Assembly: GCF_900114355.1 (NCBI RefSeq) | Contig: NZ_FOSS01000001.1 | Span: forward strand, 769,386 to 833,385 | DNA: 64,000 bases | Reading direction: 5' to 3' | From: Lysobacter sp. cf310 | Lineage (GTDB): Bacteria > Pseudomonadota > Gammaproteobacteria > Xanthomonadales > Xanthomonadaceae | Part shown: piece after piece, positions 46,452 through 62,169 of the stretch | Layout: each line of letters opens with the position of its first letter | How positions within the stretch are numbered: position 1 is the first letter of the stretch | Notes under the pieces: generated by a model | The model's database searches: none | Seen by the model: the letters and a program-made list of their open reading frames with translations, nothing else | What the model was told of the DNA's origin: nothing | Position numbers and translations under genes: made by a program

Positions 46452-46713
46452 GCGTCACCGAGGGGAGTGAAAGACGTCCCGCGCGAATAGCGGACCGCTG
46501 GGCGGGCCAGCGCGAGGGGGCCGCATTGTCGCCGATCGCGGCGGAGCGAGCAAAACCGGGCCCGGACGCGGCCGGCACCGCCAGACCCGGCAAAGCCCGC
46601 CACAGCAGGCCGCGACCGCCCCGGGAGGCGCCGCGCGGCAGGCCCGGCGCATGGGCGATCCGGGCGCTTTCGCGCATACTCGGCGCCATTCCGTCCGGAC
46701 TAGGGTCAGCCGC

Positions 46714-48398: not shown

Positions 48399-49808
48399 AT
48401 GGCAGAAACTCGTAGTGCACTGGTGATCGACGACGAGCGCGATATTCGCGAGCTGTTGGTCATGACTTTGGGCCGCATGGGCCTGCGTTGCGACACCGCC
48501 TCCAGCGTTTCGGAGGCGCGCAGCCAGCTGGCCCGCAATCGCTACGATCTGTGCCTGACCGACATGCGCCTGCCCGACGGCTCCGGCCTGGAGTTGATCG
48601 CCGAGATCAGCCAGAAGCATCCGGACACCCCGGTGGCGATGATCACCGCGTTCGGCAATGTCGAAGCCGCGGTGGAAGCGCTCAAGGCCGGCGCCTTCGA
48701 TTTCGTCGCCAAGCCGGTCGAACTGACCGTGCTGCGCGACCTGGTCCGGCACGCGCTGGAACTGAACGAGAGCCGCCGCAGCACCGCCGACACCGTCGCC
48801 TCGCGCCTGTACGGCGAATCGCCGGCCATGGCCAAGCTGCGCCAGACCATCGGCAAGGTCGCGCGCAGTCAGGCGCCGGTCTACATCGCCGGCGAGTCCG
48901 GCGTGGGCAAGGAGCTGGTCGCGCGCACCATCCATGCCGAAGGCGGCCGCGCCAGCGGTCCGTTCGTGCCGGTCAACTGCGGCGCGATCCCGGCCGAGCT
49001 GATGGAAAGCGAATTCTTCGGCCACAAGAAGGGCAGCTTCACCGGCGCCCACGCCGACAAGCCCGGCCTGTTCCAGGCCGCCGACGGCGGCACCCTGTTC
49101 CTGGACGAAGTCGCCGAGCTGCCGCTGCCGATGCAGGTCAAGCTGTTGCGCGCGATCCAGGAGAAGTCGATCCGCCCGGTCGGCGCCCAGGCCGAAGTCG
49201 TGGTCGACGTGCGCATCCTCTCGGCCACCCACAAGGACCTGGCCGCGCTGGTCGCCGACGGCCGCTTCCGCCAGGACCTGTACTACCGCATCAACGTGAT
49301 CGAACTGCGCGTGCCGCCGCTGCGCGAACGCCTGGACGATCTGCCCGGCCTGGCCAGCAAGGTGCTCGAGCGCCTCGCCGGCGCCCAGGGCCGCGCGATC
49401 CCGCGCCTGGGCGACGACGCCCTGGAAGCGCTGCGCGCCTACGCCTTCCCCGGCAACGTGCGCGAGCTGGAGAACATCCTCGAGCGCGCCCTGGCCCTGG
49501 CCGAGGGCGAGCTGCTCAACGCCGCCGACCTGCGCCTGCCGCGCCTGTCGACCCAGGGCCCCGCGCCCGTGGCTGGCGCACCCGCGGCGCCCGCCGCGGC
49601 CGCGCCCTCGGCCGGCGCCGATCCGCGCACCCTGAACCCGCGCGATACCTCGACCAGCGCCCTGCCCTCGTACATCGAGGAAATCGAACGCGCCGCGATC
49701 CAGCAGGCGCTGCAGGAAAACCGCTACAACAAGACCCGCACCGCCGCCGCGCTGGGCATCACCTTCCGCGCGCTGCGCTACAAGCTCAAGAAGCTCGGGA
49801 TCGACTGA
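48399..49808 (+). CDS. pilR: Sigma-54-dependent response regulator PilR
   Basis: PilR activates sigma-54 promoters of pilin genes. The 469-residue product has a receiver domain with the phosphoacceptor D55 ([11 protein letters not shown]), an AAA+ domain with Walker A GESGVGKE (K171), the sigma-54 contact loop GSFTGA (the PilR variant of GAFTGA) and GGTLFLDEV, plus a Fis-type C-terminal helix-turn-helix ([20 protein letters not shown]). It starts 65 bp after pilS with GGAGG upstream. Three sigma-54-type promoters in front of the pilin genes 4-8 kb downstream are the obvious targets. Confidence 0.95.
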
Positions 49809-49812
49809 GTCC

Positions 49813-49831
49813 GCCCGGATCAGATCCGGGC
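49813..49831. terminator. Shared hairpin between the convergent ends of pilR and the methyltransferase gene
   Basis: GCCCGGATC and its complement (49813-49821/49823-49831) form a stem across the 11-bp gap between the two converging stop codons. There is no T-run, so its role as a terminator is only possible. Confidence 0.35.
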
Positions 49832-50533
49832 CACGCCGATCCAGCCCGCGCTGAGCATCGGCGTGAGCCATTCCAGCAGGTTGATGCCGGCCTGGAAGCT
49901 CCGCACCGCGACCCGCCCCGCCGCGCCACTGCGATCGATCATTTCGTCGAAACGCGCCCCATAAGGGGCTAGCGATTGCAACTCGATCCCGGCGCGGTCG
50001 AACAGCGTTCGCAGGGTCTTGTACGAGTAGATCTGCAAATGATCGGGATGGGTCGATTCACGCCCAGCCAGCCCGATCGCGAGGTTGTGCCAACTGCAGG
50101 CGTTGGGCGTCGAGAACACCAGCGCCACCCCCTGCAGCTCCGGGCAGGCCTTGAGATTGCGCAGGAAACCCAGCGTGTCCGGCAGGTGCTCGATCAGCTC
50201 CCCGACCACGATCAGGTCGGGCCGGCCGTAGCGCGCCACGCTGTCCGACAAGGCAAAGATGTCGGCATTGACGATGATGCCGTTGGGACGCGTCTTCAGC
50301 CCCTGCTCGGGCACCAGTGCGGAATTGTCGATGCCCACCACTTCGCTCGCCACCGCGCACAAGCGCGAATGCAGCCAACGGCCGCTGTCCTGCTTGGCCG
50401 CGTAGGCCGTCTCGTCCAGAGCGCCGAGATCGAACACGCGTTTGTCGCGCGCATGCGCCTCGATCTGCGCGATGCGATCGCGCGGCCGGTCCACCTTGAT
50501 GCCTTCCAGGGCCGTATAGCTCAGTGGCTGCAT
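49820..50533 (-). CDS. Class I SAM-dependent methyltransferase (glycan locus), A
   Basis: The 237-residue product has a Rossmann-type methyltransferase core: RVFDLGALDETAYAAKQ (motif I variant), VVGIDNSALV (motif II), PDLIVVGELIEHLPDTLGFLRNL (motif IV/V region) and STPNACSWHNL. The region GELIEHLPDTLGFL resembles UbiG/glycan methyltransferases. There is no signal peptide. It starts inside the upstream methyltransferase gene (13-base overlap), so the two are co-translated, in a cluster with two glycosyltransferases. A sugar O-methyltransferase is likely; the substrate is unknown. Confidence 0.82.
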   Translation of the reverse strand: MQPLSYTALEGIKVDRPRDRIAQIEAHARDKRVFDLGALDETAYAAKQDSGRWLHSRLCAVASEVVGIDNSALVPEQGLKTRPNGIIVNADIFALSDSVARYGRPDLIVVGELIEHLPDTLGFLRNLKACPELQGVALVFSTPNACSWHNLAIGLAGRESTHPDHLQIYSYKTLRTLFDRAGIELQSLAPYGARFDEMIDRSGAAGRVAVRSFQAGINLLEWLTPMLSAGWIGVARI

Positions 50534-51186
50534 GGCATCGCGCCTTGCGGCACGCGCATGCGCACCAGATAGTTGGGGCGGTCTGTCGTCAGCAGACCCA
50601 GTTCGGTCGGCGCGCTGTCGGGCAGCAGGCGCTGCGCCATTTCCGCCACCTGCGCCGACCCGATCAGCATCACCCCGCGATCGCCGCTGATGTACTTGTC
50701 GGCCAGGAAACCCAGGGTCGCCCGGTAATGGCCTGGCTCGACGTCCTTGACCAGCAAGGGCGCCCCCGGCAACAGCGCATTGGCGACCGCGCGCAGGAAG
50801 TCCTCGCGCTGCTCCGGCGCGACGTGATGCATGACGTCGACCACGATCGCCGCATCGTACTTGCGCGACAGGGACCGCAAGTGGTCCTGAATGGTGGTCG
50901 AGGGCACCAGGGCGACGCGCGCCTGGAACTGCGGGCGCAGGAACCGCCCCACGCTGCCGGCCACATCGACCATGGTCACGCGCAGGTCCGGCCGCAGCGC
51001 GAACAGGCGGTTCAACAGCTCGCCGTCGCCACCGCCGATGTCGAGCACGCTGGCGTCGGCCGGCAGGGCCTCGGCCAGCTTCGCGGCCACCCGATCCAAG
51101 TCGACGAATATCGCGCGATAGGCATTGGCTGCCACGCGCTCCAACGACGCGGGCATGCACGCCCGCAATAGCGGACCTATCCTCAT
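50521..51186 (-). CDS. Class I SAM-dependent methyltransferase (glycan locus), B
   Basis: The 221-residue product has SAM motif I in SVLDIGGGDGELLNRLF (about residues 45-61), RVTMVDVAGSVG (motif II) and YDAAIVVDVMHHVAPEQREDFL (motif IV). The C-terminal part has LLVKDVEPGHYRATLGFLADKY. It is cytoplasmic. It lies 24 bp after the dolichyl-phosphate-mannose-synthase-like gene and overlaps methyltransferase A by 13 bases. Probably modifies a sugar or lipid-linked intermediate made by the neighbouring glycosyltransferases (inference from context). Confidence 0.82.
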   Translation of the reverse strand: MRIGPLLRACMPASLERVAANAYRAIFVDLDRVAAKLAEALPADASVLDIGGGDGELLNRLFALRPDLRVTMVDVAGSVGRFLRPQFQARVALVPSTTIQDHLRSLSRKYDAAIVVDVMHHVAPEQREDFLRAVANALLPGAPLLVKDVEPGHYRATLGFLADKYISGDRGVMLIGSAQVAEMAQRLLPDSAPTELGLLTTDRPNYLVRMRVPQGAMPCSH

Positions 51187-51210
51187 GGAGCCCCCGAAAT
51201 CGATAGCGGC

Positions 51211-52227
51211 TTATTCATCGCGCAGCAGCGGATGCACGGCGCGCCGGGGCACCGCGGAGATGTCGTAAGCCAGGAAACCCAGCAGCAACTGGATCCCGAC
51301 GATGATCTGCAAGGCCGCCAGCATCACGCTGCCGGCGCTGGTCGGCACCCCGCTGCGGAACGACTCGATCCAGAACCCCAGCCCCATCGCGACACCGACC
51401 GCCATGAACAGCAGGCCGAACGCCAGCTCGATCGAGGCCAGCGACAGGTCGCGCAGGAAGTAGTTGTAGAACACGCGCTTGAAGGTGTTGCGCACGTGCT
51501 TGAACAGGAAGTCGAACAGGATCTTGGAGATGCGCAGATTGCTGGTCTCGGCGCCGTAGCGCGCGTCCATCGGCACGTCCACCACCACCGCGCGGATGAT
51601 GTTGAGCCGGAACAGCATGTCGGTCTCGAAGAAATAGCGCCGGCTGATCTTCTTCAGCGGCAGCTTGGCCACCACCTTGGCGTGGATCGCGGTGTAGCCG
51701 TTGGTCGGATCGAACACGTCCCAGTAGCCGGACGAGATCTTGGTCATGAACGACAGCATGGCGTTGCCGAAGATGCGCAGCTTGGGCATGCGGCCGATCT
51801 GGGCCAGGTCGTAGAAGCGGTTGCCCTTGGTATAGTCGGCGTCGCCGCGCAGGATCGGCCCGACCAGTTGCGGCAGCGCCGCACCGGCCATCTGACCGTC
51901 GCCGTCCATCTTCACCACCACATCGGCGCCGTCGGCCACCGCGCTGCGGTAGCCGGCCATCACCGCGCCGCCCACGCCCAGGTTGACCTCGTTGAACAGC
52001 ACGCGCACGCGCGGATCGCGGCACTCGCTCTCGACGTAGCGGCCGGATTGCTCCGGGCAGGCGTCGTCGACCACGTAGATGCGCCACACCGCCGCCGGCA
52101 CGTCCTCGATCACGCCCAGGATATGTTCGCGCACGCGATGGCAGGGCACGACCACGGCGATACGCGGCGCGTCGGTCGCGGGCTCCAGCCCGGGCAAGGC
52201 GGCGATCGGTTCGGCGAGCTGGCTCAT
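51211..52227 (-). CDS. GT2 glycosyltransferase with C-terminal membrane segments (polyprenyl-phosphate sugar synthase-like)
   Basis: The 338-residue product has a GT-A domain with IAVVVPCHRVREHILGVIEDVP, WRIYVVDDACPE and the metal-binding DxD in VVKMDGDGQMAG. LRIFGNAMLSFMTKISSGYW and DVFDPTNGYTAIH are typical of dolichol-phosphate-mannose-synthase/GtrB-like enzymes. Two transmembrane helices end the protein (about residues 260-285 and 298-322). Such enzymes load a sugar onto undecaprenyl phosphate at the inner leaflet. It shares one base with the upstream GT2 gene (TGATG). Next to an EmrE-like 4-TM protein and facing the pilin/GT-C genes, it is the best candidate donor synthase for pilin glycosylation. 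The sugar is unknown. Confidence 0.88.
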   Translation of the reverse strand: MSQLAEPIAALPGLEPATDAPRIAVVVPCHRVREHILGVIEDVPAAVWRIYVVDDACPEQSGRYVESECRDPRVRVLFNEVNLGVGGAVMAGYRSAVADGADVVVKMDGDGQMAGAALPQLVGPILRGDADYTKGNRFYDLAQIGRMPKLRIFGNAMLSFMTKISSGYWDVFDPTNGYTAIHAKVVAKLPLKKISRRYFFETDMLFRLNIIRAVVVDVPMDARYGAETSNLRISKILFDFLFKHVRNTFKRVFYNYFLRDLSLASIELAFGLLFMAVGVAMGLGFWIESFRSGVPTSAGSVMLAALQIIVGIQLLLGFLAYDISAVPRRAVHPLLRDE

Positions 52228-53021
52228 CAGGCGGCGCTTTCGTAGGACAGGCGATAGGCGCGCGCGAGCAGGCGTGCGATCGGGCGCGGCCACAGGGAAT
52301 CGAACATCATCTGGTCCTCCGCCGCACGCACCCCATCGCGCACGCCCGCGCTGGTTTCGCTGCCGGGGTGGATGCGATGCAGCATCAATTGCTCGCGAAT
52401 GTACACGAACGCGCCCGGCTCCCGCGCGCGCCGCACCCAGGCGTCCCAATCCAGGTTGACGCGCAGGTCCTCGCGAAAGCGCGGCACGCTCGCGCCGCGC
52501 GCCAGGGTCACCGAAGGACACGGAATCGGGCAGCCGAAGCGCAGCGCGCGCAACTTGGCGCCCGGTCGCGCGATCGCGCCGCGCCCCAGGAACGCCAACT
52601 CCAGCAGCGCACGCTTGATCCGCAGCATCGCGGTGGCGTCGCGCACGGCCTCGCTGTCGCCCAGCAACTCGGCGTAACCGGTGAACAGCAGCGCCGCATC
52701 CGGATGCGCCGCGGCGGCATCGAGGGTGCGGCGGGTGAACTCGGGCAGATAGAGGTCGTCCTGGTGCGCGACCGTGACCCAGGGCGTGTCGGCCTGGGCC
52801 AGGGCCTGGTTCCAGTCGCGGCCGATGCCGGCGTTCGGCGCGTGCACCGTCAGGCTGGCGCCGTACTCGCGCGCCAGCTCGGCCAGCCCCTCGTACGGCG
52901 TCGAGGTCGCCAGGTGCAGGCGCGAGGGCAGACTCTGCGCGCGCAACGAATCCAGGCACGCGCGCAGGTGCGGCGAGCGCCCATAGGCGGGAACCACGAA
53001 GGAATGCAGCGACTCGGACAC
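52227..53021 (-). CDS. GT2 family glycosyltransferase, soluble
   Basis: The product (264 residues from GTG 53021) is a GT-A fold transferase: SFVVPAYGRSPHLRACLDSL at the start, NAGIGRDWNQALAQADTPWVTVAHQDDLYLPEF (residues about 65-97, with QDD as the DxD equivalent) and a C-terminal LNLDWDAWVRR-like segment (VNLDWDAWVRRAREPGAF). It has no membrane segment. The start is uncertain: GTG 53021 lies 11 bases after the stop of the 4-TM gene and gives MSESLHSFVVPAYG, but no strong ribosome-binding site is visible. Probably extends a lipid-linked sugar or decorates it; substrate unknown. Confidence 0.82.
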   Translation of the reverse strand: MSESLHSFVVPAYGRSPHLRACLDSLRAQSLPSRLHLATSTPYEGLAELAREYGASLTVHAPNAGIGRDWNQALAQADTPWVTVAHQDDLYLPEFTRRTLDAAAAHPDAALLFTGYAELLGDSEAVRDATAMLRIKRALLELAFLGRGAIARPGAKLRALRFGCPIPCPSVTLARGASVPRFREDLRVNLDWDAWVRRAREPGAFVYIREQLMLHRIHPGSETSAGVRDGVRAAEDQMMFDSLWPRPIARLLARAYRLSYESAA

Positions 53022-53032
53022 GCGCGCGACGC

Positions 53033-53413
53033 TCAGGAACCCTGCCCCACCGATGCCAGCAGCAAAACCCCGGACGACACCAGCGCGACGCCGACCCATT
53101 GCGCCGGCGTGAGCCGCTCGCCATAGACCAGCCAGCTCGCGGTCGCCATCAGTATGTACATGGTCGCGCCGGAGATCGCGAACGCCATGCCGAGCTTGAC
53201 CCGGCTCACGACGATCACCCAGATGGTGAAGCCCAGCCCCTGGATCGCGATCGCGGCCAGCACGCCCGGCGACAGCATGGCCGACATCAGCCAGTCGAAA
53301 CCCTTCAGGTCGGGGCTGCGCACGGCCAGTTGCAGCAAGGCGCGCTTGATCAGCAACTGGCTGCCGATGGTCGAGCAGCTCACGAACAGGATCATGAAAA
53401 TTTCGCGGATCAC
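53033..53413 (-). CDS. Small EmrE/EamA-like 4-TM membrane protein (candidate lipid-linked sugar flippase)
   Basis: The 126-residue product has four predicted membrane helices (about residues 2-22, 45-63, 72-92, 102-122) and the EamA/SMR pattern GMAFAISGATMYILMATASWLVYGERLTPAQWVG (residues about 76-109, quoted here by its ends). It lacks the membrane-buried Glu of drug-exporting EmrE in helix 1. ArnE/ArnF and similar proteins with this fold flip undecaprenyl-phosphate sugars. Being first in an operon with a GtrB-like GT2 enzyme, a flippase role is likely but not proven. Confidence 0.82.
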   Translation of the reverse strand: MIREIFMILFVSCSTIGSQLLIKRALLQLAVRSPDLKGFDWLMSAMLSPGVLAAIAIQGLGFTIWVIVVSRVKLGMAFAISGATMYILMATASWLVYGERLTPAQWVGVALVSSGVLLLASVGQGS

Positions 53414-53870
53414 TCAGCCCCCAAGGCGTACAGGCAACGATTCAGCACCTGCGCGTGCAGGTTCCACGGCAAAGGCGGCGGCGGACGCCGGGGCTATGCA
53501 GCCTATCTAGTATGCAAGCTCGCCTTAGGCCTGCCACACGCCGACCGTCGAGCTGCGACCTGGGTCACCGCACGGGCAGACCGTCGCCGCTCACCGACAG
53601 CGGCCCCATACGGAATCCGGGCCAGGCGCAGCCATGGATGTGACGCTCATGGTCACCACCGTCTCCCTGACTGACAAAAAAGGGCAGTCCGCCCACCCCA
53701 TTCTGCGACTCCAACTGTGACGATATTTTCTTTTTAGAGATTTTTATGTCCCAAATAGGCTGGCACGAGTTGTGCGTGATACCTAGGGCACGCGCTACTC
53801 GTGCGGCCGGCGACGGATCGCCAGGCCGGGCGAGTCGGCACGTGACTCACACCACCCCTAGGAAAAAGTC
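53414..53870. other. 457-bp intergenic region ahead of pilin 1
   Basis: It carries the sigma-54 promoter at 53761-53775 and, just before it, an AT-rich tract (53717-53756) unlike the rest of the window, as would suit IHF or PilR binding. The remaining part (53414-53700) is GC-rich and contains no convincing gene. Confidence 0.55.
53761..53775 (+). promoter_or_regulatory. Sigma-54 promoter of pilin 1
   Basis: TGGCACGAGTTGTGC has the -24 GG and -12 GC with exactly ten bases between, and a full TGGCACG -24 element. The -12 element deviates at one base (GTGC for TTGC). Transcription would start near 53787, giving a leader of about 85 bases before the pilin start. Confidence 0.78.
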
Positions 53871-54299
53871 ATGAAAAACAACCAGCAAGGCTTCACCCTG
53901 ATCGAACTGATGATCGTGATCGCGATCCTCGGCATCCTGATCGCCATCGCTCTGCCGGCCTACCAGGACTACTCGATCCGCACCAAGAACGCCGAGTGTC
54001 TGAACGTCTCTGCGGCTGCCAAGCTGGCCGTGTCCGAAACCGCCCAGGACCGCGGCTCGCTGTCCCTGGTCAGCTCCACCAACACCGGTTACACCTTCGA
54101 GGCGAGCGACTACTGCGCCTCGGTCGTCGTCGCCAACGGCGGCACGATCACCGCGACCACCAAGAGCACAGGCGCTAACGTGCAGGCCATCTTCTCGCTG
54201 ATCCCGACTGGCGCACAGGGCCGCATCGACTGGGAATGCAAGAACACCGCCGCCAACGTTCCGCCGTCGCAGCTGCCGGCCGAGTGCCGTCCGAAGTAA
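53871..54299 (+). CDS. pilA: Type IVa major-type pilin 1 (PilA)
   Basis: This is the structural subunit of the type IV pilus. The 142-residue prepilin has a short leader (MKNNQQG) cut by PilD before F8, Glu at position 5 of the mature protein (FTLIE), and the hydrophobic assembly helix to about residue 30. Four Cys (43, 82, 123, 139) can form the disulfides that staple the globular head; C139 is in the terminal [12 protein letters not shown]. The Thr/Ser-rich loop [10 protein letters not shown] (95-104) is a possible glycosylation site (inference). It has its own sigma-54 promoter and terminator and is followed by a close paralogue. Confidence 0.95.
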
Positions 54300-54322
54300 C
54301 CCTCGCGCTACCCGATGATCCC

Positions 54323-54348
54323 AAGCCCCGGTTCGCCGGGGCTTTTTT
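54323..54348 (+). terminator. Rho-independent terminator of pilin 1
   Basis: A perfect 9-bp stem (AAGCCCCGG, loop TTCG) is followed by a T6 run, 23 bases after the stop codon. It insulates pilin 1 from pilin 2. Confidence 0.93.
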
Positions 54349-54538
54349 GTTTTTGAAAAAAACAAGTCCTTATCAGGACAAATAATTCATTAATTCCATA
54401 TTGAATCCTGGTTGAGCAACCATTCTTCAATGTGCCCTCCTCATGCCTGCCGTCGTTCACCAATTAACTGCGACTACGCTCTCATTCGTCGTGCCGGCAC
54501 CTACAAGGCAGTCTTTTCGAGACTTCAGTTGGCCTTGT

Positions 54539-54553
54539 TGGCATGGGTTGTGC
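54539..54553 (+). promoter_or_regulatory. Sigma-54 promoter of pilin 2
   Basis: TGGCATGGGTTGTGC keeps the GG-N10-GC spacing, with one change in the -24 element (TGGCATG) and the same GTGC -12 element as pilin 1. The start would be near 54565, with a leader of about 89 bases. Confidence 0.72.
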
Positions 54554-54653
54554 GTATGCTTTCCGTGCACGTGCAGTTACGCACGGCAAGCCGACGGACC
54601 GCCAAGCCGGGCCAGCAGGCACGTGAAGTTCACCACTCCTAGGGGAAACACCA

Positions 54654-55079
54654 ATGAAGAACAACCAGCAAGGCTTCACCCTGATCGAACTGATGATCGT
54701 GATCGCGATCCTCGGCATCCTGATCGCCATCGCTCTGCCGGCCTACCAGGACTACTCGATCCGTACCAAGAACGCCGAGTGCCTGAACGTCGCCGCGGCC
54801 GCCAAGCTGGCCGTGTCCGAAACCGCCCAGGACCGCGGCTCGCTGTCCCTGGTCAGCACCACCAACACCGGTTACACCTTCTCGCAGAGCGATTACTGCG
54901 CCACGGTCGTCGTCGCCAACGGCGGCACGATCACCGCGACCACCCGCAGCACGGGTGCGGACGTCCAGGCCGTCTTCTCGCTGGTCCCGACCGCCGCTTC
55001 GGGTCGTATCGACTGGCGCTGCAGCAACACCGCTGCCAACGTTCCGCCGTCGCAGCTGCCGGCCGAGTGCCGTCCGTAA
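54654..55079 (+). CDS. pilA: Type IVa major-type pilin 2 (PilA paralogue)
   Basis: The 141-residue prepilin is nearly identical to pilin 1 over the first 68 residues, including the leader MKNNQQG, the FTLIE helix and QDRGSLSLV. It then diverges in the head: EASDYCASV becomes [22 protein letters not shown] becomes [13 protein letters not shown], and WECKN becomes WRCSN. The four Cys are conserved. It has its own promoter and terminator. The near-identical DNA of the 5' ends of pilins 1 and 2 should allow recombination between them. Which of the two is the major subunit cannot be told. Confidence 0.95.
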
Positions 55080-55107
55080 GCACGACCTAAGCAACACGTA
55101 AGACCCG

Positions 55108-55135
55108 AGCCCCGGCCACAAGCCGGGGCTTTTTT
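55108..55135 (+). terminator. Rho-independent terminator of pilin 2
   Basis: A perfect 9-bp stem (AGCCCCGGC 55108-55116/55122-55130, loop CACAA) is followed by a T-run, 28 bases after the stop. Confidence 0.93.
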
Positions 55136-55212
55136 GTGCCATCGTCGCAAGCGCCTATCGCACAGGCAGGCTTGGCCGCTCATACTCTTTCGTTTGGCAT
55201 CCAGGTCCCGAC

Positions 55213-57123
55213 ATGCAGGCACGACTGCTGTTAGCCGCATCCATGCTGATCGCGCTGGTCGTCTATTGGCCCGGATTGAATGGACCGTTCGTACACGACG
55301 ACATTTCCTCCTTCGCCGCCCTGCAAAGTTGGCTGCACGGAAAAGCCAATTGGCAGGAAGTGCTGCCCGGAAATGCGTCGTGGCTGTACGCGCGACCAGT
55401 GTCCATGGCCAGCTTCATGCTCACCGCGGCGCTGGGCGGCGGCACGCCTTTCTCCTACAAATTCGGCAACCTCGCCGCTCATCTGCTGTGCGGCTTGCTC
55501 GCCTGGCAGGTCCTGCGGCGTCTACTGGCTCGCGATCCTCGCCTGACCGCGCGCGCGGACCTGATCGCCGCCATCCTGACCACCCTATGGCTGCTGCATC
55601 CGCTGCATGCCAGCACCGTGCTGTACGCGGTTCAGCGTATGGCGCAGCTCGCCGCGTTGTTTGCGCTGGCTTCGCTGTGGTGCTATCTCGCCGCCCGTCA
55701 ACGCCTCGACGAAGGACGCACCCGGGCCGCCCTGCCCTTGTTGTTTCTGCTCGCGCCGCTGCTGTTCGCGGCCGCAGTGCTGAGTAAACAGAATGGCGTC
55801 GTGGCCCCGGCGCTATGCCTCGCGCTGGAACTGGCTTATTTCCGCGGCCCGCGCCCCAAGCCCTTGCTCGCGTTCTTCGGTGTGTTCCTGGCCCTGCCCG
55901 CAGCCGGCGTCGCCACCTTGCTGGCTTTTACTCCGCAGCGCCTGCTAGGCGGCTACGGCGAATGGGACTTCAGCCTCGGAGAGCGGCTGCTGACCCAGGC
56001 CCGCGCGCTGGTCGATTACCTGGGCACGCTGCTGCTGCCCTATGCGCCACGCATGGGTTTGTACACCGACGATTTCGCCACCTCCACCGGCCTGCTTTCG
56101 CCGCCCAGCACCCTGCTGTGCCTGCTGCTGCTGGCCGGCATAACGCTGGCTACGATCCTATTGCGACGGCGCGCACCCAGCCTGTTCGCCGGCTGGATGT
56201 TCTTCCTGATCGCCCACGCCGTCGAATCCAGCTTTCTGCCGCTGGAGATGTACTACGAGCACCGCAACTACCTGCCGTCCATCGGCCTGCTGCTGGCCGT
56301 GGCCGGCCTGGCCGCGCTCGTCCCCGCAGCCGCGAAGGAAGGGGAGCGGCAGAACCGATTGGTCCTGGCGGCGACTCTGGGCCTGGCCGCGGTGCTGGCG
56401 TTCGCCACGCTCGGCCGCGCCCTGGTCTGGCGCCATTTCGATACCATCGTCGAGCAGGCGTTGCGCTTCCATCCCAATTCGATGCGCGCGCATCTCGACC
56501 TGTCGACCCTGGCCCTGTTCGGTCGCCGCTACGATGAAAGCGAACGCATACTCAATGACTTGGCCGCCAGCACCACACCCCGCGACCGACTGCTGGCCAA
56601 TATCAACCTGATCACCACGCAATGCCTGCGCAATGACAGCGCCGACCCCGACCTGCTGAAGCGCATCGAGAAAGACGCGCAGCCGGAGCTGACCATCTTC
56701 GAATCGCAGTCGTTACTGCAAATGACCAACATCGCCGGCAAGGGCTGCGGCGAGATCTCTCTGCTGGACATGGCCGGGACCACCGAGACACTGCTCGCCG
56801 CCGCCCATGCGCAACCCGACTCGGTCCGATCGAAATGGGTGACTCGCGCGATCGCCGCCCAACTCTATGCGCGCGCCGACCGCTGGTCGCAGGCGCAAGC
56901 GCAGGCCGAATTGGCATGGCAGCCGGGCGCCGATCTGGCCATCGGCGAGATGCTGACGCGAATCTATATCCATAACGGGCGCCTGAGCGACGCCGAGCGC
57001 ACCTATGCTCAGTTGAAGCAGCGTACGAAGCCCTACGACACCCCGGGGCAACACAACCTGCGCGAGCTGCGGAAATCCCTGGCCCAGGGCGGTCCACGGC
57101 CACCCGCTCCCCAGGCTCCCTGA
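55213..57123 (+). CDS. Polytopic GT-C glycosyltransferase-like protein A (candidate pilin glycosyltransferase)
   Basis: The 636-residue product is a multi-TM inner-membrane protein (about ten helices up to residue 420) with a soluble helical C-terminal part (about 430-620) that looks like degenerate TPR repeats. The first periplasmic loop carries a double Asp (GLNGPFVHDD, D29-D30) as in GT-C enzymes such as TMTC-type mannosyltransferases. ARPVSMASF, STVLYAVQRMAQL, SKQN and MYYEHRNYLPSIGL also match that group. GT-C enzymes take sugars from polyprenyl-phosphate donors in the periplasm. Position directly between pilin genes suggests that it modifies pilin, as TfpW does in Pseudomonas (analogy, not homology shown). 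It has paralogues at 57973 and 60084. Confidence 0.83.
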   Translation: MQARLLLAASMLIALVVYWPGLNGPFVHDDISSFAALQSWLHGKANWQEVLPGNASWLYARPVSMASFMLTAALGGGTPFSYKFGNLAAHLLCGLLAWQVLRRLLARDPRLTARADLIAAILTTLWLLHPLHASTVLYAVQRMAQLAALFALASLWCYLAARQRLDEGRTRAALPLLFLLAPLLFAAAVLSKQNGVVAPALCLALELAYFRGPRPKPLLAFFGVFLALPAAGVATLLAFTPQRLLGGYGEWDFSLGERLLTQARALVDYLGTLLLPYAPRMGLYTDDFATSTGLLSPPSTLLCLLLLAGITLATILLRRRAPSLFAGWMFFLIAHAVESSFLPLEMYYEHRNYLPSIGLLLAVAGLAALVPAAAKEGERQNRLVLAATLGLAAVLAFATLGRALVWRHFDTIVEQALRFHPNSMRAHLDLSTLALFGRRYDESERILNDLAASTTPRDRLLANINLITTQCLRNDSADPDLLKRIEKDAQPELTIFESQSLLQMTNIAGKGCGEISLLDMAGTTETLLAAAHAQPDSVRSKWVTRAIAAQLYARADRWSQAQAQAELAWQPGADLAIGEMLTRIYIHNGRLSDAERTYAQLKQRTKPYDTPGQHNLRELRKSLAQGGPRPPAPQAP

Positions 57124-57251
57124 GGCGCCTGCCTGGAAGGCATTGGGCGTAATGGCCGAACTGCGTCATATCACGACGCAGAAGGCTGATCGGCGAGCGC
57201 GCGATCGCCCTGCCGGGCCGGCGTTCATGACGGCCGTCACACCCCCAGGCT

Positions 57252-57267
57252 TGGCACGTTCTTTGCA
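57252..57267 (+). promoter_or_regulatory. Sigma-54 promoter of pilin 3
   Basis: TGGCACGTTCTTTGCA is a perfect match to the sigma-54 consensus TGGCACG-N4-TTGCA with GG-N10-GC spacing. Transcription would start near 57278, giving a leader of about 76 bases. It is the best of the three pilin promoters. Confidence 0.9.
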
Positions 57268-57353
57268 GCGTTCTCCTACTAGGGGGGATCTGCGCCCGAC
57301 CAGGAGCATTGTGCTCAGGCCGGCCGATCCGAACGCTACTATCGGAGAGGGCC

Positions 57354-57785
57354 ATGAATAAGCGTCATACCGGGGGTTTCACCCTGATCGAACTGATGAT
57401 CGTGATCGCGATCCTCGGCATCTTGATCGCCATCGCACTGCCCGCCTATCAGGACTACTCGATCCGCACCAAGAATGCCGAGTGCTTGCAGGTTGCCGCC
57501 AGCGCCAAGTTGGCCGTGGGCGAAACCGCTCATTCCGCCATCGGACTGACCAACGTGACCTCCAGCAACGTGGGTTACACCTTCGCCGGTAGCGACTACT
57601 GCGCCTCGGTGACGATCGCCAACGGCGGCACGGTCACCGCGACGACCCGCAGCACCGGCGCCGACGTTCCGGCCGTGTTCTCGCTGGTTCCGAATGCCGC
57701 ACAAGGCCGCATCGACTGGACCTGCAGCAACACTGCAGCGAATGTTCCGCCGTCGCAGCTGCCTGCCGAGTGCCGCAACCCCTGA
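57354..57785 (+). CDS. pilA: Type IVa pilin 3 (PilA paralogue)
   Basis: The 143-residue prepilin starts at ATG 57354 ([27 protein letters not shown] upstream); an in-frame start at 57309 would lie inside the leader transcript. The N-terminal helix is identical in protein sequence to pilins 1 and 2, but the leader peptide and the region after residue 44 are diverged ([20 protein letters not shown]). The head retains [25 protein letters not shown] and the terminal [12 protein letters not shown], with four conserved Cys. It is separated from pilin 2 by GT-C gene A and followed by GT-C genes B and C. Confidence 0.95.
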
Positions 57786-57809
57786 TTTCGGGGACGTGAC
57801 CGGATCGAC

Positions 57810-57840
57810 GAAAACGGCCACTTACCTTGTGGCCGTTTTC
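57810..57840 (+). terminator. Terminator of pilin 3
   Basis: A perfect 12-bp stem (GAAAACGGCCAC, 57810-57821/57829-57840, 7-base loop) lies 24 bases after the stop. The stem ends in TTTTC, then TTGTGG; T-run is short. Confidence 0.8.
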
Positions 57841-57972
57841 TTGTGGGCCTGTCTCGTGCTGGACACGATCCGCGCCGATGACGCAGGATTCCGGCACTCC
57901 GGGGCGCGTCACGCTCCGCCCCTCGCCGCCGTGCACCCGACCGGGAATCGGCCCCAGCGGTAGCGCCATCCC

Positions 57973-59922
57973 ATGCAATCCCCGACCTCTCCTCGCTCCT
58001 GGCGAGCAGCCTTACTCGCTGACGGCGCGCACCTGCGCCTGGCAAGCATCGGATTCGCACTGCTGGCGCTGGCCACTCTGGCGATCTACTGGCCGGGCCT
58101 GAACGGGCCTTTCCTGCTCGACGACGGGGTCACTTTCCCCCCGATCCAACGCTGGCTGGCAGGGCAGGCCAGCCTCGCCGAAGCCGTGCTCGGCCGGGGC
58201 TCGCAACTCACGGCGCGACCGGTCGCTATGGCGAGTTTCGCGCTTAGCGCAATGCTGGGCGGCGATACGCCGTTCTCGTTCAAGCTCGGCAATCTGATCC
58301 TGCATGTGCTGTGCGGCCTCCTGGTCTGGCAGTTGGTCCGTCGCCTGCTGGAACTCGACCCGCGACTGGCGGCACGCGCGCCGTTCCTGGCGACGATCGC
58401 GAGCGGCCTATGGCTCCTGCATCCCATCCAGGTCAGCACCGTCCTGTACTCGGTACAACGCATGGCCCAGCTCAGCACCGCACTGGTGCTCGCCGCGGTG
58501 CTGCTCTATCTGCTGGCGCGACGCGAACTCGCCGAAGGCCGGGTGCGATCGGCGCTGTTCAAATTGTTCGTGACCTTCCCGCTGCTGGTGGTGCTTGGCC
58601 TGCTGAGCAAGCAGAACGCAGCGGTGGCGCCTCTGATCTGCCTGGCCATCGAGTTGAGCTACTTCGGCTTCGCGGGAAAGGGACCGGTGCGCGCATTCTT
58701 CGCCGCCTTCGTGCTCCTGCCCGGGACGGCGGTGTTGGCCTCGCTGTTGCTCGCACCGGACTGGCTGCTGGGCGGCTATGCGGAATGGGACTTCAGCCCG
58801 ATGCAGCGCCTGCTCAGCGAAGCGCGCGCCCTGACCTCGTATCTGGGCTTGATCCTGTGGCCGCGCGGCCCCGGCATGGGCGTCTACACCGACGATTTCG
58901 CGCTCTCGACCGGGCTGTTTTCGCCGCCCGCCACCGCGCTGTCGGTCCTGGCGCTGCTGGCGGCCAGCGCGGGTGCCGCGTACTGGCGGAAAGCCGCCCC
59001 CAGCCTGTGCGCGGGATGGTTCGCATTTCTGGCCGCGCATGCGGTCGAGTCGAGCCTGCTGCCGGTTGAGCTTTACTACGAGCACCGCAACTACTTGCCG
59101 CTGACCGGATTGGTCCTGGCGGCGGTGGGCGCGACCGCATTGCTGCCCGCCGGAGCGACCACGCGCAAGACCTACCGGATGCAACTCGCGGGCGCGGCGC
59201 TGGTGATTATCGTCGCACTGGCGACGGTCACTGCCGGCCGGGTTTCGGTCTGGCGCAGCCTGGACAGCATTTCCGCCGAAGGTCTGCGCGAACATCCGCA
59301 TTCGTTGCGCGCCATCTACGATCGCGGCAACGTGCTTTTGGCGCGCGGGGACATACAGGGCAATCTCGCGCTGATGGTGTCCTTGGCTGCCAGCGAAGAC
59401 CCTCGGCATCGACTGCTGGGCCGCTTGCACGTGATACGCGCGCGCTGCGATGCGGGCCTTCCGGTCGTGCGCGCGGACTATGCCGGGATCGCCCCTCTGC
59501 TGCTGCCGAAACTGACCATCTTCGAGCTACAGGCGCTGCGCTCGCTGGCAGTCACGCAGCAACGTCGCGGCTGCGCCATCGCCGCGCACGAACTCGGAGA
59601 CCTGATCGCGCAAGCGGCCGAGACCGCCGGCGCCCAGCCGGAATCGGCGCGGCCGAAGTGGTTGGTCCGCCTACTCGCCGCGGAGACCTACGCGCGCGCC
59701 GGCGACCTTGCCGCCGCCGAAACGCAGGCGCGCATCGGCTGGAGCGCCAGCGGCGATCTGCCCACCGGCGTACTGCTGGCGAAGATTCTGGCTGCGCGCG
59801 GCGCGCGCGAGGATGCGGCGCGGATTTGGCTGGAACTGGACTCCCGCATCAAGCCCTACGACAGCCTAGGCCGGTCCGAACTCGCCCAGATTCGCGCCAT
59901 GTTGACCGCGCCGGCGCCGTAA
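57973..59922 (+). CDS. Polytopic GT-C glycosyltransferase-like protein B
   Basis: The 649-residue paralogue of protein A has a cytoplasmic N-terminus of about 22 residues, the double Asp at D50-D51 (GLNGPFLLDD), ARPVAMASF, STVLYSVQRMAQL, LLSKQNAAVAPL and LYYEHRNYLPLTGL, plus a TPR-like C-terminal region rich in Ala/Glu/Arg (about 440-640). It would act in the periplasmic leaflet with a lipid-linked donor. No strong ribosome-binding site is seen at ATG 57973. It lies 133 bp after the pilin 3 terminator. That three paralogues differ most in the C-terminal region suggests different acceptors or sugar positions (inference). Confidence 0.82.
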   Translation: MQSPTSPRSWRAALLADGAHLRLASIGFALLALATLAIYWPGLNGPFLLDDGVTFPPIQRWLAGQASLAEAVLGRGSQLTARPVAMASFALSAMLGGDTPFSFKLGNLILHVLCGLLVWQLVRRLLELDPRLAARAPFLATIASGLWLLHPIQVSTVLYSVQRMAQLSTALVLAAVLLYLLARRELAEGRVRSALFKLFVTFPLLVVLGLLSKQNAAVAPLICLAIELSYFGFAGKGPVRAFFAAFVLLPGTAVLASLLLAPDWLLGGYAEWDFSPMQRLLSEARALTSYLGLILWPRGPGMGVYTDDFALSTGLFSPPATALSVLALLAASAGAAYWRKAAPSLCAGWFAFLAAHAVESSLLPVELYYEHRNYLPLTGLVLAAVGATALLPAGATTRKTYRMQLAGAALVIIVALATVTAGRVSVWRSLDSISAEGLREHPHSLRAIYDRGNVLLARGDIQGNLALMVSLAASEDPRHRLLGRLHVIRARCDAGLPVVRADYAGIAPLLLPKLTIFELQALRSLAVTQQRRGCAIAAHELGDLIAQAAETAGAQPESARPKWLVRLLAAETYARAGDLAAAETQARIGWSASGDLPTGVLLAKILAARGAREDAARIWLELDSRIKPYDSLGRSELAQIRAMLTAPAP

Positions 59923-60083
59923 CGCCGCTCCTCGTCAGTGCCCGTGCCGAGGCGACCGGCGGGCAATCGACATGGGATCGCGATCCGCTTGGCACGGCCG
60001 CCTCCACGCTAAAGTCGCCCTCACGATCGTCGCCACGCCCGCAATCCCAGGCTTCTTCTACACCTCCAACTCATGGGCTCCGA

Positions 60084-62021
60084 ATGTCGTCTTGGCTCGA
60101 ACTACTGAAGCGCGACGCGCGCGGTATCGGCGCACGCTGGGACGCGGCGCGATGGTGGCTGTGCTGCATGGCGGCGGTGACGCTGGCGGTGTACTGGTCC
60201 GGCTTGGACGGCCCTTTCCTGTTCGACGATCCCGCCAATCTGTCCGTATTCCGCGATTGGTATCACGGCCGGGTCGACTGGCGTTTCGCGGTGTTCGGAC
60301 GCAACGATCTGCTGTCCGCCAGACCGGTATCGATGGCCAGTTTTCTGCTCACGGTTGGTATCGGCGGCCCTGGCCCCATGCCTTACAAGCTGGGCAATGT
60401 GTTGATTCACCTGGCCTGCGGCCTGTTGGCTTTCCGAGTCCTGCAGCGCGCACTGTCCGAGGACGCCGCATTGGCGGCGCGCGCCCGACTGCTAGCTGCG
60501 ATCGCGATCGCTTTGTGGTGGCTGCACCCGATCCAGGTCAGCACGGTGCTGTATTCGGTCCAACGCATGGCGCAACTGGCCGCGCTGTTCGCGCTCGTGT
60601 CCGTTCTGGCCTATTGGGTCGGACGAGCGCGACTGGTCAACGGCCGAGCGCGCTCGGCGGCCCTGCTGCTATTCGTGGCATTTCCGGTGTCGCTCGTCTG
60701 CGGCGTCCTGAGCAAACAAAGCGCGGCGATCGCGCCGCTGCTGTGCCTGGTTCTGGAACTGGCCTACTTCCGTGGCCCTCGACCGCGCGCCGTGAAGTGC
60801 TTCTTCGCCGTGTTCCTGGCCCTTCCGATGGCCGCCGCCTCGCTAGCCCTGCTCTGGTCGCCCGAACTCCTGACCCGCGGTTACGCGGATTGGGACTTCA
60901 GCCTCGGGCAGCGCCTGCTCACCCAGGCGCGCGCGCTAATAAGCTATCTGGGGAGTTTGCTATGGCCAAGGGCCGAACGGATGAGCTTGTTCGGCGATGA
61001 CTTCGCCCTGTCGACCAGCCTGCTCTCGACGCCTTCGCCGCTGCCCGCGCTGGTTGCTCTCGCGACCATCAGCGGCGTGGTATTCGCGCTCCGTCGACGC
61101 GCCCCCAGCCTGTTCGCAGGCTGGTTCTGGTTCCTGGCCGCGCACACCGTGGAGTCCAGCGTGCTGCCGCTGGAGATGTACTACGAGCATCGCAACTACC
61201 TGCCATCGCTGGGCTTGGGCCTGGCCCTGATTGGCGTGCTGGCCTTGCTGCCGAAACGCGCGTCGATGGGCTTGCGACCGCTACCTTTGACCCTGGCCGC
61301 GGCCGGACTGTGCGCCTTGCTGGCCACCTCCACCTGGGGCCGTGTTCAGACTTGGCGTAGCAAACAGGGGATCGTGTCGAATGCCTTGCTGCACCACCCG
61401 GACTCGCTACGGGCGCGCCAGACCCAGGCCTTTATCGACGTCAGCGCCGATCGGATCGATGCGGCGCTCGCGCAGATGGCGCAGATGGCCGACGGCCCGA
61501 TACCGCGTCGGCGCCTGTTGGCTCGAATCGATTCGGTGTCCATCGCCTGCCTAGGCGAACGCGACCCCGACCCGGCTTCGCTCGAGCAGGCCTTGACCGA
61601 CACCCAGGCTCAAATCACGCTGGACGAAGTCCTGGTCGCCGATCTGCTGTCCCAGGCCACCAGTGTCGGCCGTTGCCCGCGGATCACCTCCGAACGGACC
61701 ATCGACACGGTCCTGAGCCTGCTGGCCGCCGCCTCGAAGCAGCCGGACACCGCCGAACCCAAGCGCCAGATGCGCCTGATCGCCTCCCTGCTGCTTGCGC
61801 GCGCGCAGCGCTGGCCGGAGGCGCAACAGCAGGCCGAGCGCGCCTGGGCCGCGCAAGCACCCCTGGAGACCGCCGACATCCTGGTCCGCGCCTATCTGGC
61901 CAACGGCGACCGCGACGCGGCCGAGCGGACCTGGCGCGAACTGCAGGCCCGGGTCCGGCCCTATGATCGTGCCGGTCAGCACCTGCTGGGGCAGCTGCGA
62001 GGTCTGATCGAGCAACATTGA
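60084..62021 (+). CDS. Polytopic GT-C glycosyltransferase-like protein C
   Basis: The 645-residue third paralogue has a basic N-terminus, the double Asp at D48-D49 (GLDGPFLFDD), ARPVSMASFLL, STVLYSVQRMAQLAALF, GVLSKQSAAIAPLL and MYYEHRNYLPSLGL. Its membrane part is close to protein A, but the C-terminal soluble part is diverged. The first 25 residues contain DARGIGARWDAARWW, unlike the others. ATG 60084 is the first start that gives the conserved core; longer in-frame versions read into the previous gene's tail region. It lies 161 bp after gene B and 148 bp before pilB. Confidence 0.82.
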   Translation: MSSWLELLKRDARGIGARWDAARWWLCCMAAVTLAVYWSGLDGPFLFDDPANLSVFRDWYHGRVDWRFAVFGRNDLLSARPVSMASFLLTVGIGGPGPMPYKLGNVLIHLACGLLAFRVLQRALSEDAALAARARLLAAIAIALWWLHPIQVSTVLYSVQRMAQLAALFALVSVLAYWVGRARLVNGRARSAALLLFVAFPVSLVCGVLSKQSAAIAPLLCLVLELAYFRGPRPRAVKCFFAVFLALPMAAASLALLWSPELLTRGYADWDFSLGQRLLTQARALISYLGSLLWPRAERMSLFGDDFALSTSLLSTPSPLPALVALATISGVVFALRRRAPSLFAGWFWFLAAHTVESSVLPLEMYYEHRNYLPSLGLGLALIGVLALLPKRASMGLRPLPLTLAAAGLCALLATSTWGRVQTWRSKQGIVSNALLHHPDSLRARQTQAFIDVSADRIDAALAQMAQMADGPIPRRRLLARIDSVSIACLGERDPDPASLEQALTDTQAQITLDEVLVADLLSQATSVGRCPRITSERTIDTVLSLLAAASKQPDTAEPKRQMRLIASLLLARAQRWPEAQQQAERAWAAQAPLETADILVRAYLANGDRDAAERTWRELQARVRPYDRAGQHLLGQLRGLIEQH

Positions 62022-62169
62022 ACCGTCGCCTGCAATGGCTGTCCTATCATTCCAGACGCCTACGTTAATGGCCAAAATCGAGCCCTGACTAGCAAAAAGG
62101 CGACATCTGTCCGCTCGCGTGGCCCACGGATTGGGGTAAAGTCGGACCGGGGAAAAACCGAGGACTGCG

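Follow-up and report, generated by a model that had tools for sequence, protein, structure and literature searches.

The stretch of DNA analysed here (64,000 nucleotides, hereafter the window) lies in the 4.73-Mb, 12-contig genome of Lysobacter sp. cf310 (contig NZ_FOSS01000001.1, positions 769,386 to 833,385). Between its pilSR and pilB genes, it contains a divergent operon on the minus strand, followed by a plus-strand block of type IV pilin genes and genes for three polytopic transferase-like proteins, which we call GTC. The plus-strand block begins with pilin1 (53871–54299), in which the Pfam N_methyl and Pilin domains both score above cut-off, and pilin2 (54654–55079), which is 91% identical to pilin1. 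These are followed by GTC_A (55213–57123), pilin3 (57354–57785; N_methyl and Pilin above cut-off, 76% identity to pilin1), GTC_B (57973–59922) and GTC_C (60084–62021; the ATG was placed at 60084, and the computations on this protein ran from 60087). The pairwise identities among the GTC proteins are 47, 44 and 49% over the full length, and the three are the sole matches to their family in the genome (E up to 10). All genes named in a first-pass annotation of the locus were found at their positions, and the motifs that it had pointed out are present in all three polytopic proteins (GPFVHDD/GPFLLDD/GPFLFDD, ARPV-MASF and YYEHRNYLP). In the family tree, GTC_A, GTC_B and GTC_C form one group (support 0.93) with their counterparts from Lysobacter sp. 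Root916, the nearest named relative in the scan (99% identity over GTC_B), and this group stands beside other Lysobacter proteins. The three enzymes therefore probably stem from duplication in this lineage, accompanied by three similar pilins.

The three polytopic proteins resemble GT-C glycosyltransferases that carry a TPR-like tail at the C-terminus. Scanning genome contigs yielded 58 loci with 90 GTC frames (one a fragment), which together with the window proteins gave 93 sequences. D29, R61, K83, N86, H90 and R142 are invariant in all 93, and K192 (92/93), R351 (92/93) and D30 (90/93) are nearly so, a degree of conservation beyond chance. PMC6801728 describes the GT-C loop signatures as DD or DxD after the first transmembrane (TM) segment, an arginine in loop 2, a lysine in loop 3 and an R...P signature in a late loop. 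The GTC residues fit this pattern, since the acidic pair D29/D30 follows the first TM segment, R142 is located in the second loop, K192 in the third loop, and R351 and the proline of the consensus NYLP in a late loop. Family-averaged hydropathy indicated 12 segments over threshold, several of them very short (GT-C proteins have about 11 TM helices). When the TM part was compared against a profile built from 28 PMT_2 frames, hhalign returned Prob 90, E 1.4e-6 and a score of 57.9 (29.8 for the best of 30 block-shuffled templates and 22.0 for the reversed template). In this alignment, the Asp pair of GTC coincides with the acidic pair of PMT_2, and its loop-3 Lys with a Lys. The GT-C assignment made at first pass is supported by this controlled profile comparison and by the conserved loop residues. 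In the window proteins, no Pfam or NCBIfam model scored above cut-off in the catalytic part; GTC_B had a sub-threshold PMT_2 match (E 0.04).

For the 53 members in alignment A3, almost all of the 25 Pfam families listed (of 45) were TPR families, with TPR_19 in 32 of the 53 (E up to 0.1), and one member matched DUF6056 (E 9e-6). The TPR_19 match of GTC_A (E 3e-4) is below cut-off, and GTC_B is without one. A sequence search of solved structures had TPR-type proteins among the best 60 of 145 matches listed, and with a small profile it gave three anaphase-complex matches at E 0.4. A Wzy_C-type ligase (TfpO/TfpM/PglL type) was ruled out as the identity of the GTC proteins by a Wzy_C profile comparison (hhalign Prob 17), and no Pfam Wzy_C match was found in the window GTC proteins at E up to 1. 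Viral contigs contained 21 pattern matches, none confirmed as a GTC relative, and plasmids contained no GTC match; neither the viral contig scan nor the phage-family match lent support to a phage origin of the system.

The firmest functional clue to the window proteins is their homology to TfpW, through which a pilin-linked GT-C of this kind is already known. TfpW, which belongs to the group IV pilin cassette of P. paraeruginosa, is reported to glycosylate pilins with D-arabinofuranose (D-Araf), protecting against pilus phages (PMC11841053, PMC12369383). According to these reports, pilin is modified with Araf homopolymers (PMC11841053), the enzyme is termed an oligosaccharyltransferase, its D-Araf donor is made from a separate gene island, and the gene order is pilA-TfpW-TfpX (PMC12369383). 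The wording 'most TfpW-encoding species' (PMC11841053) indicates that TfpW was already known to others in several species. In line with the reported gene order, a PA7 frame of 657 codons directly 3′ of pilin was taken as TfpW (PMC12369383). Against the GTC family model, this frame scored 51 bits (E 6e-14 in the genome search); main-clade members scored about 240 to 760 bits (training rows included), and the controls at most 2.5 bits (28 PMT_2 frames) and 12.1 bits (28 Wzy_C hits). Profile comparison of TfpW with GTC gave hhalign Prob 98 and E 1.1e-13 over 405 columns of the core, so that the GTC proteins are most readily seen as far relatives of TfpW, with about 23% identity. Of 12 positions viewed, TfpW keeps D29, D30, R61, R142, K192, H350, W406 and P421. 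Like the GTC genes, tfpW lies directly 3′ of pilin and encodes further residues beyond the core. The first-pass annotation had regarded the TPR-like tail as a difference from TfpW, and this stands in part: the PA7 frame also continues for about 180 residues past the part aligned with the GT-C core, and no Pfam TPR was found in this stretch. In the tree, TfpW joins the pilin-adjacent protein of locus L185 (support 1.0), its nearest relative found, apart from the main pilin-linked group; the rooting gave no clean clade test, and therefore no formal monophyly is claimed for that group. Two further species of PA7's genus (L389, L390) have pilB facing a pilin-GTC-GT2 arrangement with high-scoring GTC and glycosyltransferase family 2 (GT2) proteins.

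Linkage to pilins was analysed in 274 genomes of Gammaproteobacteria at a GTC match threshold of E 1e-10. A match was present in 89 genomes, 81 above 200 bits and eight weak, cut or broken (below 200). Flanks of up to 7 kb, shorter at contig ends, were taken around the top match of each of these genomes but G000 (88 loci) and around 12 second loci, and pilins were detected in them with a model built from the genome-contig loci. The association of GT-C genes with pilins recurred, and the core reading passes the genomic survey that the first-pass annotation had proposed: a same-strand pilin immediately precedes the GTC gene in 58 of the 88 class loci, 77 of which have an informative 5′ side. In a further 11 loci the contig stops within 700 bases, and one has pilins elsewhere in the flank. 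In the genome-contig set, a pilin is located directly 5′ of GTC in 47 of 58 loci. GTC co-occurs with Pfam Pilin, which is present in 84 of the 89 GTC genomes versus 95 of the 185 GTC-less genomes (Fisher p 4e-14). The order pilS-pilR-pilin-GTC was found again in related loci, many of which are flanked by pilB homologues. Within the Lysobacteraceae, 60 of 119 genomes contain GTC. A pairing of one GT-C with each pilin, as first proposed for the window, is not a rule, and a strict one-enzyme-one-pilin relation is ruled out by 31 of the 58 genome-contig loci, which contain two or more GT-C frames, often behind a single pilin.

In a sample of the whole phylum, GTC matches were found in 30 of 200 genomes (a second copy in G317 was left out of the fetched loci). 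Among the high-scoring loci, a pilin lies directly 5′ in 11 of 15, and one more (L313) is cut by a contig end; three of the 15 belong to the window's own class, and for the other classes the count is 10 of 12. None of 15 low-scoring homologues (47–132 bits) is linked to a pilin, although weak prepilin-like frames lie about 2 kb away in one (L323), and the ten low-scoring proteins scanned all have TPR matches. Pilin linkage is thus a mark of most high-scoring members and of a few far branches, and not of TPR-tailed GT-Cs generally. In 20 pilin loci from genomes lacking GTC, the GTC model matched nothing, and pilB directly follows the pilin in 7.

Several individual loci are informative in their own right. 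The slot between pilin and pilB, elsewhere held by GTC and a synthase, is occupied by a Wzy_C-like frame at L335 (3438–4805, plus strand), one of these 20 loci, which reads as a case of alternative modification modules at one site. At L179 (7001–8602, minus strand), a decayed GTC copy with several stops lies directly beside two pilins. Among the 12 second loci, a pilin is directly 5′ in 3. The GTC copies at L187, L188, L192 and L196 lie among several prepilin-like frames, in three of the four cases also with a pilB-like ATPase; we take these sets to be MSHA-like, an arrangement that suggests a second type of pilin substrate. In L030, L033, L040, L043, L044 and L045 (several titled Woeseiaceae), a pilB-pilin-pilin run lies about 4.7 kb from the GTC gene on the opposite strand.

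The other recurrent partner of GTC is a GT2 protein. Among 84 of 96 neighbours listed 3′ of pilin-GTC, Glycos_transf_2 was found in 33 and Glycos_transf_1 in 15, and GT2, GT4 and methyltransferase genes are common at this position. Seven representatives of the 3′ GT2 match an AglJ-type synthase model with E 5e-28 to 1e-39, below the equivalog cut-off, and two late TM segments are present in all nine examined. Scores against a model of this partner are bimodal, with 99 frames at 200 bits or more and 23 below 100. Of the 88 class loci, 45 have the AglJ-like GT2 immediately 3′ in the same orientation and 14 at another place in the flank; 15 are without it, 10 are cut and 4 have no GTC over 100 bits. 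In the genome-contig set, this GT2 is directly 3′ in 30 of the 58 loci and elsewhere in 7.

This usual synthase has no close copy in the Lysobacter genome (best 38% over 207 residues), where the divergent operon appears to stand in for it and the GT-C gene is tripled. The central gene of the operon, GT2tm (51211–52167, minus strand), encodes a probable polyprenyl-phosphate-sugar synthase (AglJ/PpgS/GtrB-like; Glycos_transf_2 E 5e-18) that has the domain arrangement of AglJ, GtrB and DPMS, a GT2 domain with two C-terminal TM segments (residues 243–261 and 274–292). It matches TIGR04182 AglJ with E 5e-16 and the GtrB-like phrog_841 with E 2e-11, and was given no exact family name because its scores are under the curated equivalog cut-offs. 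GT2sol (52227–53099, minus strand) is a soluble GT2 glycosyltransferase (Glycos_transf_2 E 5e-12; no TM segment over threshold) whose true start may be further downstream, since its frame overlaps the adjacent gene. This gene (53033–53413, minus strand) encodes a small EamA/SMR-type protein with four hydrophobic segments (EamA E 1e-7, above cut-off) and is a candidate ArnE-like flippase; ArnE is its best NCBIfam match (E 2e-6), at 28 bits against a cut-off of 92. The operon also contains two S-adenosylmethionine (SAM)-dependent methyltransferases on the minus strand, MT1 (50521–51186; Methyltransf_12, PF08242, E 2e-11) and MT2 (49820–50527; Methyltransf_23, PF13489, E 3e-11), both above cut-off.

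The GT2tm-GT2sol-EamA trio faces pilin-GTC in the window, in Root916 (L012) and in three fetched sister operons (L368, L369 and L370). Root916 has homologues of both methyltransferases; of the sister operons, L368 has both, L369 MT1 only and L370 neither. Owing to this patchiness, a methylated pilin sugar would be lineage-specific at most. In 22 Lysobacterales loci viewed, the usual GT2 is present in 9, the trio in 5, neither in 8 and both in none. The chance of no co-occurrence is about 0.05 by hypergeometric arithmetic, which suggests that the usual synthase has been exchanged for the trio operon. In another Lysobacter locus (L017:15446–18917), an oxidoreductase, a frame with an acetyltransferase domain and a GT4 are located between GTC and pilB, a hint that a sister species may use another sugar.

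The whole arrangement is framed by genes of the pilus machinery, named by sequence and all on the plus strand: the sensor kinase gene pilS (46651–48333), the response regulator gene pilR (48399–49808) and, behind GTC_C, the pilus extension ATPase gene pilB (62170–63897). Elements resembling sigma54 promoters were scanned with TGGCACRNNNNNTGC, which we take to be the -24/-12 consensus. The elements 5′ of pilin1 (53761–53775) and pilin3 (57252–57266) match it exactly and that of pilin2 (54539–54553) with 1 mismatch; all three are on the plus strand and stop about 90 to 100 bases 5′ of their pilins. None of the 8 matches in the window lies just 5′ of a GTC gene. Matches are not enriched window-wide (8 found versus 17 expected), and therefore it is their positions that carry the weight. 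In addition, a stable hairpin with a U-rich end lies 3′ of each pilin on the plus strand (terminators were looked at in the window alone). The intrinsic-terminator-like hairpins after pilin1 (54323–54344; folding of 54310–54360, -18.7 kcal/mol, z -2.9) and between pilin2 and GTC_A (55107–55131; folding of 55095–55145, -21.9 kcal/mol, z -3.3) were also found by the terminator scan; that between pilin3 and GTC_B (57810–57840; folding of 57786–57860, -36.6 kcal/mol, z -4.8) was not among the terminator-scan results and was detected by folding only. GTC_A and GTC_B thus lie, in the manner of TfpW, directly 3′ of a pilin and behind a terminator-like hairpin. This layout resembles that of pilin-accessory cassettes of Pseudomonas, in which a terminator 3′ of pilin is reported to restrict accessory expression (PMC11841053).

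The pilins themselves were examined as possible acceptors. Of 97 pilin-GTC pairs found, 95 pilins gave usable features. A C-terminal Ser is present in 6 of these 95, versus 8 of 26 control pilins, and its rarity speaks against a TfpO/TfpM-type C-terminal site. Among the GTC-linked pilins, no one acceptor column stood out as conserved. For the 44 pairs with pilR in the stretch, GTC and pilin distances correlate after control for pilR (partial r 0.31, 0 of 2000 permutations), a correlation to which linkage and shared transfer could contribute.

Taken together, the GTC proteins are very probably periplasm-facing GT-C glycosyltransferases that O-glycosylate internal Ser or Thr residues of neighbouring type IV pilins, using a polyprenyl-phosphate-linked sugar as donor. 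Pilin glycosylation by this family is well supported by homology and synteny; the pilin linkage in 58 of 88 class loci and the homology to TfpW over the core lend weight to the earlier idea of GT-Cs decorating adjacent pilins with a polyprenyl-linked sugar. From the observed gene order, conservation, TfpW and PMT_2 homology, pilin and synthase linkage, hairpins and promoter-like elements, we infer the catalysis, acceptor, site, donor sugar and order of steps, as well as the methylation and the role of the methyltransferases. GT2tm would make a polyprenyl-phosphate-linked sugar in the cytoplasm, GT2sol and the methyltransferases would perhaps modify this lipid-linked sugar, and the EamA/ArnE-like protein would flip it. 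The GT-C core would then transfer the sugar to pilin held in the membrane, with the TPR-like periplasmic tail probably contacting the acceptor. A promoter of the PilR/sigma54 type would drive each pilin, and a terminator-like hairpin follows each; expression of the enzymes behind pilin2 and pilin3 is therefore probably low, as in the Pseudomonas pilin cassettes.

Some observations weigh against this explanation. No pilin was found in the flank examined in 18 of the 88 class loci, at least one of which (L146, in G116) is an additional copy, with its sister in that genome adjoining pilins, and 11 of the 58 genome-contig loci have no pilin directly 5′, six of the eleven being those with an opposite-strand pilB-pilin-pilin run. 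The pilin-less loci keep a GT2 partner directly 3′ in L135, L138 and L164 and elsewhere in L127 and L170. Because of this retention, some family members may be working copies that act on another or a distant acceptor. Linked and unlinked members cannot be told apart by score alone, since two of five low-scoring full-length class proteins adjoin a pilin: L184 (6317–7915, minus strand) and L185 (6008–7870, minus strand) encode far-diverged GT-Cs (51 and 67 bits) directly behind one. The PMT_2 alignment spans just the first part of the core, ending at loop 3, and TfpW does not keep K83, E206, H335 and R351 in the alignment used, where a nearby HER may be a one-residue shift relative to R351. In the pilins, the content of Ser plus Thr outside the helix is slightly higher in linked than in control proteins (0.221 versus 0.195, p 0.03), and the rise is due to Ser, with none for Thr alone (p 0.93). 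The correlation of distances is subject to the liberal behaviour of partial Mantel tests. Finally, 29 of 119 Lysobacteraceae genomes have a GT2tm of the window type, and 16 of the 29 have no GTC match; this synthase is therefore not exclusive to a pilin role and may serve other products.

An alternative that we regard as unlikely is that the GT-Cs act on pilin with a lipid-diphosphate-linked oligosaccharide, or elongate the glycan by several sugars in turn. It is in line with the Araf homopolymers added by TfpW (PMC11841053), with the description of TfpW as an oligosaccharyltransferase (PMC12369383), with the two or more GT-C frames in 31 of 58 loci and with Glycos_transf_1 in 15 of the 84 downstream neighbours scanned. 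However, the conserved AglJ/DPMS-like partner fits a polyprenyl-phosphate monosaccharide, and the frames read in 49820–63897 include neither a GT4-type transferase nor a Wzx-like flippase or Wzy polymerase; GT2sol could extend the sugar. A second alternative, to which we give a rather low probability, assigns the donor operon to another surface product (lipid A or O-antigen, in Gtr or Arn style), with the GT-Cs using a donor from elsewhere in the genome. The GT2tm genes in genomes without GTC agree with it, as does the finding that 8 of 11 GT2tm loci fetched (selected from the 29) lack both pilin and GTC in the stretch; L371 and L376, which are among the 8, also have GT2sol and EamA homologues. 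Against it are the trio directly facing pilin-GTC in five loci, the lack of a close copy of the usual synthase in this genome and the absence of loci with both the usual synthase and the trio.

It is quite improbable that the GT-Cs act on lipopolysaccharide or exopolysaccharide and that operon history has placed their genes next to pilins. The 18 class loci without pilin would be explained in this way, and glycan-type neighbours are common: GT2 is the commonest family (7 of 79) among the neighbours of these loci, the others listed (25 of 122) being mixed, and GT2, GT4 and methyltransferase genes occur 3′ of pilin-GTC. Yet the usual 5′ neighbour is a pilin, also outside the class, several extra copies lie in other pilus-type gene sets (L187, L188, L192 and L196), and the homologue TfpW acts on pilin. 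Least credible is a role as pilus-assembly accessories without transferase activity, as for the non-glycosylating TfpY that is also encoded in terminator-bearing pilin-accessory cassettes (PMC11841053), because the invariant polar loop residues and conserved synthase partner would be unexpected in a pure chaperone and the proteins are homologous to TfpW.

If GTC proteins glycosylate pilins, as we favour, a pilin-linked GT-C family would be present in about a third of the sampled gammaproteobacterial genomes (89/274 at E 1e-10). Pilin glycosylation has so far been known from few systems, mostly Wzy_C-type ligases and TfpW, and GTC would represent a large, little noticed family with one experimentally characterised relative that decorates pili. 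From its genes one could predict the decorated pilins, the enzyme responsible and the donor synthase involved, the link among pilin diversity, phage receptors and glycan donors would become testable, and pilin-specific transferases would be on offer for glycoengineering. A literature search, covering few subscription papers, did not find the breadth of the family, the TPR tail, the AglJ-like partner or the exchangeable donor operon, nor any paper joining pilin with TPR, TMTC or GT-C terms. More tentatively, and with somewhat less than even chances of being right, TPR-tailed GT-Cs that O-glycosylate pilins via polyprenyl-phosphate sugars may be a bacterial counterpart of TMTC, TfpW being a mere divergent twig, and such glycosylation may rank among the most common modifications of pilins in Gammaproteobacteria. 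Pilin-transferase cassettes would then diversify jointly, with exchangeable donor modules (AglJ-like synthase or synthase-flippase-methyltransferase), and Lysobacter would have expanded to three pilins and three transferases for several glycoforms, e.g. against pilus-binding phages.

When the system is compared with those already known, the window operon recalls the Gtr and Arn systems, which follow the logic of a donor synthase, a small flippase and a GT-C enzyme. GT2tm matches the GtrB-like phrog_841 and the flippase has ArnE as its best match; unlike in those systems, the scores are below the curated NCBIfam cut-offs and the adjoining acceptor genes are pilins. GT-Cs of the PMT_2/ArnT type share the first-loop acidic pair and the third-loop Lys, which align (hhalign E 1.4e-6), whereas their low scores on the family model set them apart. 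TfpO/PilO, TfpM, PglL and PglS resemble GTC in their periplasmic O-glycosylation role, and a Wzy_C-like frame takes the same slot at L335; they differ in belonging to another family. TfpO, TfpM and PglS are described as pilin-specific and often gene-linked, and TfpO and TfpM as using a C-terminal Ser or Thr of the pilin (PMC12645811), a residue which most GTC-linked pilins lack. The cyanobacterial Ogt (Synpcc7942_0051), a TPR protein encoded beside pilA in many cyanobacteria and reported to glycosylate PilA, is similar in its TPR and its gene position, by its description (PMC12288463, PMC9260433). The eukaryotic TMTC proteins were also considered: TMTC_DUF1736 did not match the three window GTCs (E up to 1) and is not among the 25 of 45 Pfam families listed for the 53 members, and PF08409 (TMTC) was found in none of 150 genomes, a weak negative because no control matched either. 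The C-terminal tail of TMTC consists of TPR, a trait that GTC shares through the TPR_19 matches in 32 of 53 members. As described for the O-mannosyltransferases of this group (GT105), TMTC enzymes further resemble GTC in joining a GT-C core to a long C-terminal domain, which is luminal in TMTC, and they act on a protein acceptor with a polyprenyl-phosphate donor (PMC6801728).

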